From the NCBI GenBank assembly GCA_903929815.1, contig CAIYWD010000142.1:1-34393 (forward strand): a DNA stretch of 34,393 nt, in the 5' to 3' direction. This document shows positions 3,617 to 33,556 of the stretch, in pieces; position 1 is the first letter of the stretch; every line of letters starts with the position of its first letter. The stretch is from an uncultured beta proteobacterium. Lineage in GTDB: Bacteria; Pseudomonadota; Gammaproteobacteria; Burkholderiales; Burkholderiaceae_C. The notes under the pieces are model-generated. The model did no database searches and was not told the origin of the DNA. It worked only from the letters and a program-made list of their open reading frames with translations. Made by a program: the position numbers and the translations under genes.

Positions 3617-4537
3617 ATGCCAGCATCACCCATCACCCTTTCGCAATGCGTCACACGAGCCGCTGCAAAGTTGACGGCTGCTGGCGTGGTTTTTGGTCAC
3701 GGCGCGACCTGTGCGTTCGATGAGGCCGCCTGGCTGGTTTTGTGGAAAATCGGCCTGCCCCTGGATACCTCGTTGTTGGCCGAAGATGAATCAGCCCATC
3801 GGCCTGTCACCCGCACTGAACAAGCGCAGGTAGCTACACTGATTGAAGCGCGCATCAGCACCCGCAAGCCCGCCGCTTACCTGACCCAGGAGGCTTGGCT
3901 GCAAGGTGTGGCGTTTTATGTGGATGAACGCACCCTCGTGCCACGCTCACTGATTGCTGAAGTGTTGATGGAAGGCAGCCTGGATTATTGGCTCAGTGAT
4001 GAGGTTCATCGGGTGCTGGACTTGGGCACTGGTTGCGGCAGCCTAGCGGTCATTGCCGCCATGGTGTATCCCGATGTCAAAGTGCAGGCCTCTGACATCA
4101 GCGCAGATGCATTGGAAGTGGCACGCATCAACATTAACCGCCACGGCCTGCATGGTCGCGTTGTCTTGCGCCAATGTGACGGTATTCCAAAAACCGGCAG
4201 CCATTACGACCTGATTTTGTGCAACCCGCCGTATGTCAACGCCCAGAGCATGAAAACCCTGCCCCCAGAATACATGGCAGAGCCTGCGTTGGCACTGGAC
4301 GGCAACCGTGCAGGCGGCCAGGACGGCATGGACTTTATTCGCCAACTGCTGTCAGATGCCGCCCTGCAAATGACCAAGGATGCCATTTTGGTGTTGGAAG
4401 TTGGCCATGAACGCGAACATTTCGAGGCCGCCTTTCCTAAACTCGAAGTGGTGTGGCTCGAAACCAGCGCGGGTGAGGACCAGGTTCTGCTTGTTACGCA
4501 GGATGCGCTCGCGGCATTCCGTGCGACTGCCACCTGA
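3617..4537 (+). CDS. prmB: 50S ribosomal protein L3 glutamine N5-methyltransferase
   Basis: SAM motif VLDLGTGCGSLAVIAA and catalytic NPPYVN; PrmB-type sequence. Confidence 0.9.
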   Translation: MPASPITLSQCVTRAAAKLTAAGVVFGHGATCAFDEAAWLVLWKIGLPLDTSLLAEDESAHRPVTRTEQAQVATLIEARISTRKPAAYLTQEAWLQGVAFYVDERTLVPRSLIAEVLMEGSLDYWLSDEVHRVLDLGTGCGSLAVIAAMVYPDVKVQASDISADALEVARININRHGLHGRVVLRQCDGIPKTGSHYDLILCNPPYVNAQSMKTLPPEYMAEPALALDGNRAGGQDGMDFIRQLLSDAALQMTKDAILVLEVGHEREHFEAAFPKLEVVWLETSAGEDQVLLVTQDALAAFRATAT

Positions 4538-4570: not shown

Positions 4571-5911
4571 ATGCCCATGACAACCCTCCACATTCACGAA
4601 CACACCCAAACCCTGGGTTTACAGGCCAAACAGGCTGCAGCCCTGATGGCTAAAGCGTCGGCAGCTATTAAAAACAAAGCACTTCGACACTTGGCGACTT
4701 TGCTTCGTGCCAATGCAAACGTGCTACAACTTGAAAATGCCAAAGACCTAGAACGTGCCACAAGCCTCGATGCACCCCTGTTGGACAGGCTCAAACTCAG
4801 CCCCCATGCGATTGAAACTTGCGCCCTGGGGTGTGAACAATTGGCAGCCATGCCTGACATCATTGGTGAAATCACTGCTTTGCGCCAGCAACCCAGCGGC
4901 ATTCGTGTGGGGCAAATGCGTGTGCCCATCGGCGTATTTGCCATGATTTTCGAGAGCCGCCCCAACGTCACGATTGAAGCAGCAAGCCTGTGCATCAAAA
5001 GCGGCAATGCCTGTATTTTGCGGGGTGGCTCTGAAGCGCTGGACTCGAACAGGGCATTGACTCAACTGGTGCAGCAAGCTTTGCAGATGAGCTGTCTGCC
5101 CATGAATGCGGTGCAATTGGTGCAAACCACAGACCGCGAAGCCGTTGGTCACTTGATTACCATGCAGCAGTATGTGGATGTTGTCATTCCACGCGGCGGC
5201 AAGGGGCTGATTGAACGCATCAGCCGTGAGGCCAAAGTGCCGGTCATCAAGCATCTCGATGGCAATTGCCACACTTATGTGGATGACCCGTGCAACATCA
5301 ATGAGGCCATCACCATCACAGACAACGCCAAAACCCAAAAATACAGCCCCTGCAATGCCACCGAAAGTCTGCTGGTGGCACGCGGTATCGCTCATGAATT
5401 TTTACCCCGCATGGCCACTATTTTTGCCAACAAAGGCGTTGAAATGCGGTGCGACCCCGAGGCCTTGGCCTTGCTGCAAACTTATGAACAAAATAGGCCT
5501 CTAACCCACGCCCATCAAGCGTTGGTAGCTACTCAAAATATAGCAATATCCTTTCAACTGACTTCTGCTACCGAAGAGGATTGGTTCACGGAATACCTTG
5601 CGCCCATCATCAGCATCAAAATTGTGGCCGACGTGAACGAGGCCATTGCCCACATCAACCACTATTCCAGTCACCACACCGATGCCATTTTGACGTGCAA
5701 CCACCAGCATGCCCAACAGTTTTTGCGAGAGGTTGATTCAGGCAGCGTGATGGTCAATACCAGCACCCGCTTTGCCGATGGTTTTGAGTATGGTCTGGGG
5801 GCCGAAATTGGCATCAGCACCGACAAGTTTCATGCGCGTGGTCCCGTGGGCATGGAAGGCTTGACCTCGCTGAAATATGTGGTGCTGGGGCAGGGAGAAG
5901 TACGGAGTTGA
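4571..5911 (+). CDS. proA: glutamate-5-semialdehyde dehydrogenase (gamma-glutamyl phosphate reductase), with in-frame repeat-derived segment
   Basis: [62 protein letters not shown] at 4571 or 4577. Confidence 0.95.
5491..5547 (+). repeat. ~57 bp dispersed repeat copy inside proA (family with 14209 and 25758)
   Basis: AAATAGGCCTCTAACCC...TCAAGCGTTGGTAGCTACTCAAAATATAGCAATA; cf. CAAATCGGCCTATAGCGC...TAGCTTGCATAGTTAGCTATTG at 25758. Confidence 0.7.
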
Positions 5912-5935: not shown

Positions 5936-6280
5936 TCAATGCGAATAGTCGCAAGGATCAAAGATACGGTATTGGTTCTTGCCGGCCAGTTTGGCCTGGT
6001 ACATGGCCACATCTGCTTCACGCATTAACGCCTCTGCGGTTTTGCTTTGTTCGTCTCCATAAAAGCTGATGCCTATGCTGGCAGAAACCTGTAGGAAAAA
6101 CGAACCAAATTCAATAGGTTCGGCGGCAGCCACCAACAGACGATCCAGCAGGGGCAGTGCGTTCTGGGCATCTTCCAAGTCCACCAAAACCGCCACAAAC
6201 TCATCTCCGCCATTGCGCGCCAACGTATCGCCGTCCCGCAACGCCTGCTTCCCACTTAACCCATCTTTAACATATGGCAA
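5936..6280 (-). pseudogene. C-terminal half of a GGDEF (diguanylate cyclase) domain, 5'-truncated
   Basis: ARNGGDEFVAVLVDL...SIGISFYGDEQSKTAEALMREADVAMYQAKLAGKNQYRIFD; the usual N-terminal half of the domain is missing. Confidence 0.8.
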
Positions 6281-6536
6281 AAAATAGTAATAAAAATCAA
6301 AGCATTATAGAGATACTGTTTTTTTGTTGTGCAAAATTCGTTTGCAATATGTTGATTTTAAATAATGTTTTTGAGGGTGTTAAACCCAGGTTAAGGCGGG
6401 ACAGGGATGAAGTCAGTTGCATGCGCTTGTTACGGCTAATCAACCAAATGGGTGAGCTTCCCCTGCCAAGAAAACCACGTGAGCGAATCAACCGTAACCC
6501 ATTGATATTGCATTTGTCCCGCCTTAAGTGGGAAGC
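6248..6536. mobile_element. MITE-like / nested inverted-repeat insertion between SBP and GGDEF remnants
   Basis: Outer IR GCTTCCCACTTAA (6248-6260)/TTAAGTGGGAAGC (6524-6536); IR CTTAACCCATCTTTAAC (6257-6273)/GTTAAACCCAGGTTAAG (6380-6396 approx.); IR TTAAGGCGGGACA (about 6391)/TGTCCCGCCTTAA (about 6514). Confidence 0.65.
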
Positions 6537-8036: not shown

Positions 8037-8200
8037 AGGATATGGTCAACTATCAGTTGCGCATTTGGCCATCAGAGTTAAAGATTCAATGCCAAGCGCA
8101 AATCGTGCGGTGTGGCCCGGTCACATAAGCGATTTGTAACGACGCAGTACGCCAAAATCTGACAAGCCAAAAGCAAAACTTAGGGTTGACCATATCCTTA
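8037..8200 (-). mobile_element. MITE-like element, copy 1 (~165 bp, TIRs AGGATATGGTCAA.../...TTGACCATATCCTTA)
   Basis: Core reverse complement GTCAGATTTTGGCGTACTGCGTCGTTACAAATCGC...GGGCCACACCGCACGATTTGCGC matches the copy at 17703-17872 in opposite orientation. Confidence 0.85.
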
Positions 8201-8260
8201 GTTTGGCAGGTTGAAAAACATCCACTGCTGACCATTCGTTTGTAATCACGCTGCGATTGG

Positions 8261-8388
8261 GTAATCGTTTAGACCTCATGTCAAATGCCGTCATTCCCGC
8301 GAAGGCGGGATGTTGGTTTACCAGAGTAGAAAGGCAGTCTGGATTCCCGCCTTCGCGGGAATGACGATGGTGGGGTCTAAACGGTTAC
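8261..8388. repeat. palindromic intergenic repeat (CGTTTAGACC / TCATTCCCGCGAAGGCGGGA family)
   Basis: GTCATTCCCGCGAAGGCGGGA (8290-8310) / TCCCGCCTTCGCGGGAATGAC (8345-8365), with outer arms GTAATCGTTTAGACC / GGTCTAAACGGTTAC. Confidence 0.85.
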
Positions 8389-13297: not shown

Positions 13298-14479
13298 TCA
13301 TTGACGCATAACCACTAACCCCTTGAGGTATTCTCCCTCGGGAAACGTAAGCGTCATGGGGTGGTCCGGCGCTGCACCCATGCGCTGAAGGATAAACGCA
13401 TCCACCCCCGCATCGCAGCCCGCCGATGCCACAATTTTATGAAACAAATCAGCACTGATGCCACCAGAGCAACTATAGGTGAACAGCACACCACCGGGTT
13501 CGAGCAGCATCAAGGCCAGCCGATTGATGTCTTTGTAGGCACGAGCAGCCCGCTCGGCATGCACCACAGTCGGTGCCAGTTTTGGCGGGTCCAGCACAAT
13601 GGCATCAAACCTTTGGCCATCTGCAAGAAACTTGCGCAAAGACGCATTCACATCCGCATCCATAAAAGTGGCACGATGCGCCGCAAAACCGTTCAATGCC
13701 ACATTGGCGGCCGCTTTTTCAAGCGCTGTGCCTGAGGAGTCAATGGACAAGACATGCGCAGCGCCACCTGTGAGCGCTGCAACGGTAAATCCGCCGGTGT
13801 AGCAGTAGCCATTGAGCACCCGATCAAACCCCAAACGACGAGTCTCCTCGGCAAAACGTTGACGACTGTCGCGCTGATCCAGGTAAAACCCGGTTTTATG
13901 GCCGTGGGCAATGTCAAGTGAGAGTTTCCAGTCGTGTTCTTCCAGCACCAGTTCTACATCGCCCTGACCTTGCAACCAGCCGGTGGACGCTGTTAAACCC
14001 TCCAGGGTGCGGCTGCTGGTGTCGCTTCGTTCATACAGATTAGTTAGGCCTGTGGTAGCCAACAGTGCATCGACAATCGTGTTTTTCCAGCGTTCTACAC
14101 CTGCTGACGTGAACTGTGCCACCAAGGTGTTGCCGTAACGATCCACGATCAAACCAGGCAGTTTGTCAGACTCGCCATGAATCAATCGCATGGCATTGCT
14201 TTTTATGTCAAATCGGCCTCTAGCCCTTATGGCTCTTGCGATGTTAGCTATGAAAAACGAATCATCTATGCGCTGTTCTTCAGAAAAACTCCACACGCGT
14301 GCGCGGATTTTGGAGTGTGGACTAAACGCCGCCCACGCCAGAAACAGGCCTTGATCAGACTCCACGCGAACGGTCTCACCCGCATCCGCAGAACCCCGAG
14401 CAATGGCCGATTCAAAAATCCAGGGATGACGGCGCAAAAGGGAACGCTCTTTGCCAGGACGCAAACGAATGGTTTTCAT
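13298..14479 (-). CDS. rlmI: class I SAM-dependent rRNA (cytosine-C5) methyltransferase, RlmI-type
   Basis: PUA-like N-terminus (RLRPGKERSLLRRHPWIFESAI), RLIHGESDKLPGLIVDRYG, LNGYCYTGGFTVAAL, DAIVLDPPKLAP, FTYSCSGGIS. Confidence 0.85.
   Translation of the reverse strand: MKTIRLRPGKERSLLRRHPWIFESAIARGSADAGETVRVESDQGLFLAWAAFSPHSKIRARVWSFSEEQRIDDSFFIANIARAIRARGRFDIKSNAMRLIHGESDKLPGLIVDRYGNTLVAQFTSAGVERWKNTIVDALLATTGLTNLYERSDTSSRTLEGLTASTGWLQGQGDVELVLEEHDWKLSLDIAHGHKTGFYLDQRDSRQRFAEETRRLGFDRVLNGYCYTGGFTVAALTGGAAHVLSIDSSGTALEKAAANVALNGFAAHRATFMDADVNASLRKFLADGQRFDAIVLDPPKLAPTVVHAERAARAYKDINRLALMLLEPGGVLFTYSCSGGISADLFHKIVASAGCDAGVDAFILQRMGAAPDHPMTLTFPEGEYLKGLVVMRQ
14209..14262 (+). repeat. dispersed ~55 bp repeat copy inside the rlmI-like gene
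   Basis: CAAATCGGCCTCTAGCCC...CTTGCGATGTTAGCTAT aligned to CAAATCGGCCTATAGCGC...CTTGCATAGTTAGCTAT (25758) with identical spacing. Confidence 0.6.
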
Positions 14480-17702: not shown

Positions 17703-17872
17703 CTAAGGATATGGTCAATAATAAGTTCCGCATTTGGATCGTCAGATTTGGGCGCACTGCGTCGTTACAAATCGCTGATGTGGCTGGGCCACACCGCACG
17801 ATTTGCGCCTGGCATTGCATCCCAACTCTGACGGCCAAATGCACAACTTATTGTTGACACCATATCCTTAAG
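17703..17872 (+). mobile_element. MITE-like element, copy 2 (~170 bp)
   Basis: TIRs TAAGGATATGGTCAATAATAAGTTccGCATTTGG / CCAAATGCACAACTTATTGTTGACACCATATCCTTA; inner dyad ACAAATCG...CGATTTG. Confidence 0.9.
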
Positions 17873-17939: not shown

Positions 17940-17961
17940 CCACATCACTTTGAAACGCACC
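17940..17961 (-). repeat. 22 bp dispersed motif copy (GGTGCGTTTCAAAGTGATGTGG)
   Basis: CCACATCACTTTGAAACGCACC; one mismatch to the reverse complement of 25681-25702. Confidence 0.8.
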
Positions 17962-18037
17962 CGATTTCGACAGCCTGGGCATCGTGCTGGGTTTATCCAT
18001 GCCACTCTACAATGTGATTTCACAATGCAAGGCCACT

Positions 18038-23105: not shown

Positions 23106-25697
23106 ATGTTACAAGCCTATCGCACCCACGTTGCAAATCGTGCCACCCTTGGCATTCCAGCACTGCCCTTGAGTGCTGAACAAACCACTGCGTTGGTCGA
23201 ATTGCTTAAAAACCCGCCTGCCGGTGAATCATCATTTTTGCTGGAATTGATCACCTACCGTGTTCCCGCAGGTGTCGATGATGCCGCCCGGGTCAAAGCC
23301 AACTTTCTGGCAGCAGTGGCACACGGCACAGAACCTTGCGCACTCATCAGTCGTGAAAAGGCCACTCAACTGCTAGGCAGCATGCTCGGCGGATACAACC
23401 TGACTCCACTGATTGATTTGCTGGACGACCCCAAAGTTGCGGCTGTAGCAGCGGAGGCTCTTAAAAATACCTTGCTGATATTTGACCAGTTTCATGATGT
23501 CTTTGAAAAAGCAGACCAAGGCAACCGTCACGCCAGAGAAGTTTTACAAAGTTGGGCAAATGCACAGTGGTTTACAAGTCGCCCTGAAGTGCCACACAGC
23601 TTGATCTTGACCGTGTTCAAGGTGACAGGTGAAACCAATACCGACGATTTGTCGCCTGCCCCCGATGCCTGGAGCCGCCCTGACATTCCGCTACACGCTT
23701 TGGCCATGCTTAAAAACAAACGTGATGGCATCACGCCAGATGAAGACGGCCAACGTGGCCCCATCCAGTTGATGGAAAGTTTGCGGGAGCGAGGTCATTT
23801 GGTGGCCTATGTGGGCGATGTGCTGGGCACGGGTTCAAGCCGCAAGTCGGCCACCAACAGCGTTTTGTGGTTCACCGGCCAAGACATTCCCTTTGTACCC
23901 AACAAGCGTTTTGGCGGTGTTTGTTTGGGATCCAAAATTGCCCCCATTTTCTACAACACCATGGAAGACTCAGGTGCTCTGCCCATCGAGCTTGACGTGA
24001 GTCCCATGCAAATGGGAGACACCATCGAGCTTCGCCCTTATGAGGGTAAAGCGCTCAAAGATGGCTTGGTCATTGCAGAGTTCACTCTTAAAAGCGAAGT
24101 GCTGTTGGACGAAGTGCGTGCTGGTGGCCGTATTCCTCTCATCATTGGCCGTGGGCTGACCGCCAAGGCACGCGAAGCTCTGGGCTTGCCCGTCTCAACG
24201 CTTTTTCGTCTGCCGCACAACCCCAGGGGCCATGGTGCAGGCTTCACGCTGGCGCAAAAAATAGTAGGGCGTGCCTGTGGATTTCCCGAAGGTCAGGGTG
24301 TTTTGCCAGGCACTTATTGCGAGCCAAAAATGACCAGTGTGGGTTCACAAGACACCACAGGCCCCATGACGCGCGACGAGTTGAAAGACCTGGCCTGCCT
24401 GGGTTTCAGTGCCGATCTGGTGATGCAATCTTTCTGCCACACAGCAGCCTATCCCAAGCCCGTGGATGTCAAAACACACCACGAATTACCCGTGTTTATG
24501 AGTAAACGCGGTGGTATTTCGCTGCGACCAGGTGACGGCATCATCCACAGTTGGCTCAACCGCATGTTGTTGCCAGACACTGTGGGCACAGGAGCAGACA
24601 GCCACACCCGCTTTCCCCTTGGCATCAGCTTTCCTGCGGGATCAGGACTGGTAGCCTTTGCTGCAGCAACAGGTGTCATGCCTCTGGATATGCCAGAGAG
24701 CGTGCTGGTGCGATTCAAAGGCCAACTGCAGCCCGGTGTGACTTTGCGTGATCTGGTCAATGCCATCCCGCTGTATGCCATCCAGTTGGGGCAATTGACC
24801 GTGGCCAAGCAGGGCAAGATCAACGTGTTTTCTGGCCGAATTCTTGAAATTGAAGGTCTGCCCAACCTGAAAGTGGAGCAAGCCTTTGAACTCAGCGATG
24901 CCTCGGCTGAGCGCAGCGCTGCCGGATGCACCGTTCACCTGAACCAGGAACCCGTGGTGGAATACATCCAAAGCAATATTGTCATGCTGCAATGGATGAT
25001 GGCCAATGGATATTCTGACGAACGCACCATCCGCCGCCGCATCAAGGCCATGCAGGCTTGGCTAGACAACCCGCAATTGCTCCAGGCCGACGCCAATGCT
25101 CAGTATGCCAGCGTGATTGAGATTGATCTGGGCCATATTGTTGAACCCATCGTAGCCTGCCCCAATGACCCCGACGATGTCAAAACCCTGTCGGATGTGG
25201 CGGGTGCCAAAATTGACGAAGTCTTTATTGGATCCTGCATGACCAACATTGGTCACTTCAGGGCAGCATCCAGGCTGCTTGAAAACAGGCGCGATATTCC
25301 CGTCAAACTATGGATGGCACCGCCCACAAAAATGGACGCACAGCAACTGACCGAAGAAGGTCACTATGGCGTGCTGGGCAGCGCAGGCGCACGCATGGAA
25401 ATGCCCGGGTGCAGCCTGTGCATGGGCAATCAAGCGCAAGTCAAAGAAGGTGCTACGGTATTTTCAACCTCCACGCGAAACTTCCCCAACCGCCTGGGTA
25501 AAAACAGCAACGTCTATCTGGGCAGTGCCGAGTTAGCCGCCATTTGCGCCAAACTGGGACGCATTCCAACGCGGCAAGAATACATGGCAGATATGGCTGT
25601 GTTGTCTGCGGGCAGCAGCCAAATTTACCAATACATGAACTTTGACAAAGTAAAAATGTATGCCGATGCTGCGGCGACTGGGTGCGATTCAAAGTGA
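23106..25697 (+). CDS. acnB: bifunctional aconitate hydratase 2 / 2-methylisocitrate dehydratase
   Basis: 863 aa; [77 protein letters not shown]. Confidence 0.97.
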
Positions 25698-25702
25698 TGT
25701 GG
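25681..25702 (+). repeat. 22 bp dispersed motif copy overlapping the acnB stop codon
   Basis: GGTGCGATTCAAAGTGATGTGG; matches 17940-17961 and 33452-33473 in reverse complement. Confidence 0.8.
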
Positions 25703-25757
25703 ATGTGGCAACATTCACCTGTCAAACTGAGAGGACGTGAGTGAGTTTTTTGTATAA

Positions 25758-25816
25758 CAAATCGGCCTATAGCGCACGTCTAGCTTGCATAGTTAGCTAT
25801 TGTTTTAATAGTAATA
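25758..25816 (+). repeat. dispersed ~55 bp repeat, intergenic copy upstream of atpI
   Basis: CAAATCGGCCTATAGCGCACGTCTAGCTTGCATAGTTAGCTATTGTTTTAATAGTAATA. Confidence 0.7.
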
Positions 25817-25980
25817 TAGACCCATAAATTCGCCAAATTTTTTTCCTTGTACGTCCCCATATTGGCTGCTTCATATCCTTTGCATCGGTTCATCCCTCGC
25901 GCCAATAAAGCACGGGCTAGACCATGCACTTGCTCATTGACTCTGGTGATTTGTACGAAATATCTGCGACAGCGCCTGTC

Positions 25981-33279: not shown

Positions 33280-33360
33280 CCTGGGAGCGCGGGCATCTTG
33301 CCCGCATTGGATTGGCTGTCATGGCTGCCTACAGCGGGCAAAATGCCCGCGCTCCCAGGG
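33280..33360. repeat. REP-like long hairpin (CCTGGGAGCGCGGGCATCTTGCCCGC family) between atpC and rpiA
   Basis: CCTGGGAGCGCGGGCATCTTGCCCGC ... GCGGGCAAAATGCCCGCGCTCCCAGG. Confidence 0.85.
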
Positions 33361-33451: not shown

Positions 33452-33473
33452 CCACATCATTTTGAATCGCACC
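33452..33473 (-). repeat. 22 bp dispersed motif copy upstream of rpiA
   Basis: CCACATCATTTTGAATCGCACC; one mismatch to the reverse complement of 25681-25702. Confidence 0.75.
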
Positions 33474-33556
33474 CTAATCAAATTTTGGCCACGTTCTATT
33501 TCCATGACGGAGATGTCTGCATTTTGGAAAAATTTCAAGCATCACAAGATCAACAC

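Follow-up and report, generated by a model that had tools for sequence, protein, structure and literature searches.

Motif copies in the window and in the genome

The window, that is, the whole stretch of 34,393 nucleotides that was analysed, contains a proA gene in which one segment of the protein linker is a copy of a dispersed DNA motif of about 58 bp. The first-pass annotation had located this segment at 5491-5547, in frame inside proA, and its position and translated peptide were both correct. Three copies had been counted in the window, including a match at 25758 that proved real; repeat finding together with a motif model (R1) gave five (Table 1). R1 was built from 14 sequences: 11 proA linkers of relatives, the linker of the window, and the window copies at 14210 and 25758. 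The copies in the ProA N-terminus and in the prmB-like gene were absent from this training set, yet they scored 26.6 and 22.4 bits. The window copies are about 58 bp long with 38-56% GC. A near relative (L081) carried the same three copies at matching sites, and no indel of 6 or more bases, as expected for an insertion polymorphism, was found across a 5-kb alignment with it.

Run on 413 kb of the window's own genome (G000), R1 found 72 matches at E≤1; with the sequence reversed, a single weak match (E=0.24) was left. An iterated model found 76 matches of at least 14 bits in the same 413 kb and none in the reversed sequence. The density was one copy per 5.4 kb, which extrapolates from 413 kb to about 480 copies per genome; the assembly is fragmented into 283 contigs and 97.5% complete. 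A complete genome of the same genus (G010) had one copy per 6.9 kb.

Table 1. Positions of the motif copies and associated features in the window
Feature	Position	Strand	Remarks
Motif copy within a prmB-like methyltransferase gene (3617-4537)	3798..3849	+	22.4 bits; corresponding site filled in G010
proA, gamma-glutamyl phosphate reductase, 446 aa	4571..5911	+	PDB 4ghk E=1e-150; structural match to 4ghk
Motif copy in the conserved ProA N-terminus, in place	4633..4681	+	26.6 bits; no indel vs homologues
Motif copy in the ProA linker, phase 2, ProA residues 307-326	5490..5546	+	51.7 bits (R1); length gain; 0/400 synonymous resamples equal its score
Motif copy antisense within an rlmI-like gene (13298-14479, - strand), in place	14210..14265	+	45 bits
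MITE-like unit of ~212 bp holding the copy at 25758	25680..25891		perfect left TIR GGGTGCGATTCAAAGTGATGTGG, degenerate right TIR
Intergenic motif copy inside the MITE-like unit	25758..25814	+	43.8 bits

The genome scan bore out the multi-copy family that had been expected. About 37% of the copies are intragenic (28 of 76 in the own-genome sample and 22 of 58 in G010). The motif is depleted in genes, and the copies between genes are enriched at convergent pairs and depleted at divergent pairs. All 28 sense copies lie in the only stop-free sense frame of the motif. The motif is long, composite and AT-flanked, and no replication-strand polarity was seen in G010 (33:25). Two short palindromes in the consensus can pair (H2 0.87, H1 0.62), but convincing covariation was found in neither hairpin, and the copies pair essentially no more than column composition predicts. 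Folds of single copies as RNA were not unusually stable, and a search of Rfam returned no relevant family, just a sub-threshold microRNA match elsewhere.

The motif is distributed patchily inside one genus and one family. Of 61 same-genus genomes, about 20 gave at least 91 scored matches with R1, and many of the rest had none or very few. Matches were present in 22 of the 61 genera of the family and in none of 79 genomes of other Burkholderiales, drawn evenly across the order.

Many intergenic copies (type-A) of the own genome lie inside a unit of about 211 bp with 23-bp inverted ends, and units with both ends were found at 2105-2315 of L066 and in L078. The terminal inverted repeats (TIRs) of this unit gave 33 matches in 413 kb of the own genome and none in 400 kb of the motif-rich G010, so the MITE-like unit is a secondary carrier. 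The motif differs from MITEs in being abundant in G010 without TIRs, and its coding copies lack MITE ends. Within the window, MITE-like TIRs were observed at 17940-17962, 25680-25702 and 33452-33474, and the one at 25680 overlaps the final codons and the stop of an aconitase gene (end 25697).

Other repeats were also present. The contig ends (35-173 and 34255-34393) form a 139-bp inverted repeat, 92% complementary, probably a dispersed repeat at which the assembly broke off. A further inverted-repeat family of about 160 bp was found at 8037-8201 and 17703-17863 and is common to L081 (7498-7660). Two hairpins, at 8289-8366 and 33280-33359, possibly represent further REP families; their stems are 22 bp and perfect (CGTCATTCCCGCGAAGGCGGGA) and 26 bp with the arms GCGGGCA..TGCCCGC. 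At 5936-6300, a gene that is continuous in L081 (5230-5400) is broken near 6250, apparently by inserted or rearranged sequence.

Coding copies in ProA and in other genes

The linker copy coincides with a gain in protein length. Measured anchor to anchor, the ProA linker is 53-55 residues in the repeat-less short form (motif-poor same-genus genomes and Pseudorhodoferax) and 73 residues in the window, and the stretch is missing from Burkholderia ProA (4ghk), in line with the shorter linker that the first-pass annotation had given for ProA homologues. The gain is about 19 residues, or 57 nt, which is one motif unit; it is in frame and restricted to a lineage. Linkers with a recognised repeat, in same-genus genomes and named relatives, were 67-82 residues long, and a third group of intermediate or long linkers (60-74 residues) had no recognisable repeat. 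The linker repeat was found in 19 of 23 motif-rich and 2 of 25 motif-poor genomes, complete genomes among its carriers. In the predicted structure, residues 307-326 follow the helix at 296-308 and form a surface-type loop of low confidence (block means 53 and 66), while the rest has the fold of 4ghk. Neither of the contrary outcomes named beforehand, an equal linker in repeat-less orthologues or a motif that is not multi-copy, occurred.

In the ProA tree the repeat-bearing linkers did not form one clade (9 changes, at least 5 of them forced), which is compatible both with a single gain followed by losses and with several gains. In two relatives, L023 and L087, this linker holds another, unlike repeat (VRAELVEA / VRPELVEG), also in frame. 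The loop thus tolerates foreign sequence and is a repeated landing site.

The two ProA copies share their codon phase; the N-terminal one lies in place, and the one in the linker comes with the length gain. The N-terminal copy is present in motif-rich genomes and missing from motif-poor orthologues of equal length; at the peptide level, this conserved region resembles the motif very well. Other genes gave comparable results. All 25 RlmI orthologues recovered from the genus, and a further 16 from the family's other genera, had a segment of 44 residues, and the NadE segment was 73 residues in 30 of 30 orthologues. At the motif sites, E. coli RlmI differs by 2 residues and Burkholderia NadE by 3. 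Motif score followed the motif load of the genome at RlmI (Spearman 0.91 in the same genus and 0.85 in other genera), NadE (0.86) and the ProA N-terminus (0.79, 50 genomes), but motif-rich and motif-poor genomes are related within their classes, and across four independent pairs no association was significant, the ProA N-terminus being in the expected direction in all four.

The coding copies therefore form two classes, one with extra length (ProA linker, TlyA and DprA) and one without (RlmI, NadE and the ProA N-terminus). Alignment with PDB homologues leaves gaps of about 21 residues at the TlyA copy and about 25 at the DprA copy; copies in MurI, EarP, ThiL and DapE are intermediate, their lengths departing from those of PDB homologues by a small amount, about 3 to 11 residues. 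Constant length at RlmI, NadE and the ProA N-terminus indicates that the motif there was not inserted but either arose by rewriting in place or was retained while other genomes lost it; the orthologue comparisons fit both directions, whether motif-rich lineages gained the motif or motif-poor ones lost it. Hence the motif family does not consist simply of exonised insertions. The Rickettsia-like exonisation that the first-pass annotation had proposed agrees with the length gain in the ProA linker and, given the three sites of unchanged length, finds no support as a general mechanism.

Synonymous sites and genome dialects

When synonymous codons were resampled with the proteins kept (400 resamples), nearly all intragenic matches were erased; the copy in TruB and a weak one in G010 were among those whose scores resamples reached. 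The similarity therefore resides in the DNA. Chance similarity and protein-level convergence were rejected, by resampling and by the empty reversed controls, for the copies in RlmI, NadE and the ProA linker.

Synonymous conservation was examined along the same genes. Of 372 windows in RlmI, the motif window ranked first in motif-rich genomes and 113th in the motif-poor group. In NadE, the best window of motif-rich genomes started at 272, adjoining the motif, whereas in motif-poor genomes the motif window ranked 557 of 566. The ProA linker ranked 24 of 436, and conservation at the ProA N-terminus was weakly raised (163 of 441).

The consensus form of the motif differs between G000 and G010. Matrices were made from the non-MITE intergenic copies alone and applied to held-out intragenic copies, and in these two genomes the intragenic copies followed the dialect of their own genome (p=5e-7). 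The difference of medians was 17.2, compared with a mean of 0.4 and a maximum of 11.8 in a letter-permuted control (500 permutations). The same sites in RlmI, NadE and the ProA linker also differed between the two genomes in the expected direction. That the motif can fill codons already present while protein length stays the same points to a process that maintains it by acting on the DNA itself, and we have moderate confidence in such DNA-level maintenance.

Explanations and known repeat systems

On balance, the proA segment is probably one of several hundred copies of a motif that is maintained at the DNA level, in the manner of an uptake sequence, in some Comamonadaceae-type genomes, and it is part of this same judgement that the function of ProA itself is probably not the target. 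A genome-wide force would create and refresh copies in place. The candidates are biased DNA uptake with recombination, as for the DUS of Neisseria and the USS of Haemophilus, or short-tract gene conversion between copies. In ProA the copy would have arrived with the 57-nt length gain in a variable linker and, read in its only stop-free sense frame, would add a tolerated surface segment of about 19 residues. We infer the uptake function by analogy, because a genome-wide, coding-tolerant force that follows the local consensus matches how uptake sequences behave. Counting against this explanation, the motif is far longer and sparser (1 per 5-7 kb) than known uptake sequences. The uptake channel gene comEC was found in nearly all genomes, whether rich or poor in the motif, so motif load does not go together with competence. 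Nor would evolution purely in place lead one to expect the length gains seen with the ProA, TlyA and DprA copies.

An in-frame insertion of selfish palindromic elements of the RPE type, with the copies in conserved genes being old insertions trimmed or eroded by selection, would account for the ProA gain of one unit, the gaps in TlyA and DprA, the uniform frame of the sense copies and the two palindromes. We consider it rather unlikely, since at RlmI, NadE and the ProA N-terminus no homologue, E. coli RlmI and Burkholderia NadE among them, is shorter by a matching amount, neutral fossils would not give synonymous conservation and dialect tracking, and the hairpins lack covariation. Short-tract ectopic gene conversion between copies, without uptake, would spread and homogenise the motif, replace similar coding stretches and occasionally insert a whole unit; it is also one of the two forces in the preferred explanation. 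It accounts jointly for indel-free replacement, genome-specific dialects and occasional insertions, but donor tracts would have to anneal at modestly similar sites, and no candidate conversion machinery was found. The own genome gave no RAYT-type transposase, and the presence of such transposases does not follow the copy number of the motif. By itself, gene conversion is unlikely to a similar degree.

From its sequence features, the motif could also be the binding site of a chromosome-organising or regulatory protein under ordinary selection. Its long, composite, AT-flanked build and its placement between convergent rather than divergent genes would fit, but the lack of strand polarity in G010, the patchy presence inside one genus and family and the lack of a candidate protein make this improbable. 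Chance similarity, or convergence of amphipathic helices at the protein level, might explain the TruB copy and the weak G010 copy; nearly all remaining intragenic copies were never reached in 400 resamples and the reversed controls were empty, and this explanation is barely credible.

The motif is apparently undescribed. No match to the consensus strings was found in the literature searched, the genome paper of Rhodoferax ferrireducens mentions CRISPR repeats as its sole repeats, and the GTAG/CGTC REP and RepRanger papers do not name the genera with the motif. It is possible, and we propose it tentatively, that the motif is a genome watermark of Comamonadaceae-type bacteria, written and rewritten in place by biased uptake or gene conversion in genic and intergenic positions, with genome-specific dialects, and sometimes lengthening essential enzymes such as ProA. 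Insertion is the usual reading of repeats in bacterial coding genes. Here, at three or more sites, the repeat occupies existing codons of conserved proteins and their length is kept. These sites, together with the coding copies that follow the dialect, make a DNA-level force separable from protein-level selection and directly testable. Biased uptake, if true, would extend self-recognition sequences to one more bacterial lineage, with a motif that is much longer; gene conversion, if true, would offer a new picture of the spread of short repeats through essential genes.

Several known systems share part of these properties. Like Rickettsia palindromic elements, which are about 150 bp (PMC10969869), the motif has many dispersed copies, a large part of them in frame in unrelated metabolic genes with a tolerated extra peptide. 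It differs in being about 58 bp, in the in-place state of several coding copies, in its genome-specific dialects and in its lineage; coding copies of RPE are insertions, which holds at the ProA linker and fails at RlmI, NadE and the ProA N-terminus. REP/RAYT elements (PMC8266576, PMC2817692) are palindromic, as the motif is in its consensus, and likewise short, high-copy and often intergenic, but about 37% of the motif copies are inside genes, with no tie to RAYT presence: the RAYT family PF01797 (Y1 transposase) had no match in the own genome and was present in motif-poor relatives. The Bordetella BRE is also a betaproteobacterial dispersed repeat with some copies in coding sequences, and it has been reported from Rhodoferax and Polaromonas. 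Its description (about 90 bp, about 69% GC, at most 29 copies per genome; PMC3110155) sets the motif apart, which is about 58 bp, AT-richer and present in hundreds of copies.

Uptake sequences, such as the USS of Pasteurellaceae, are by published accounts no insertions; they are under-represented in coding sequence, and molecular drive can make them accumulate (PMC7811141), and the DUS of Neisseriaceae have dialects (PMC3630211). They are 10-32 bp long (12 bp or about 31 bp for DUS and USS) at about 1 per 1-2 kb, whereas the motif, known here from sequence alone, is about 58 bp at 1 per 5.4 kb in the own genome and 6.9 kb in G010, and some of its copies come with insertions. In-place evolution was seen at RlmI, NadE and the ProA N-terminus and not at the ProA linker, TlyA or DprA. 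The motif resembles DUS and USS in being dispersed, under-represented in genes, evolving in place at some sites and having dialects between related genomes, the genome-wide dialect being present in the two genomes compared.
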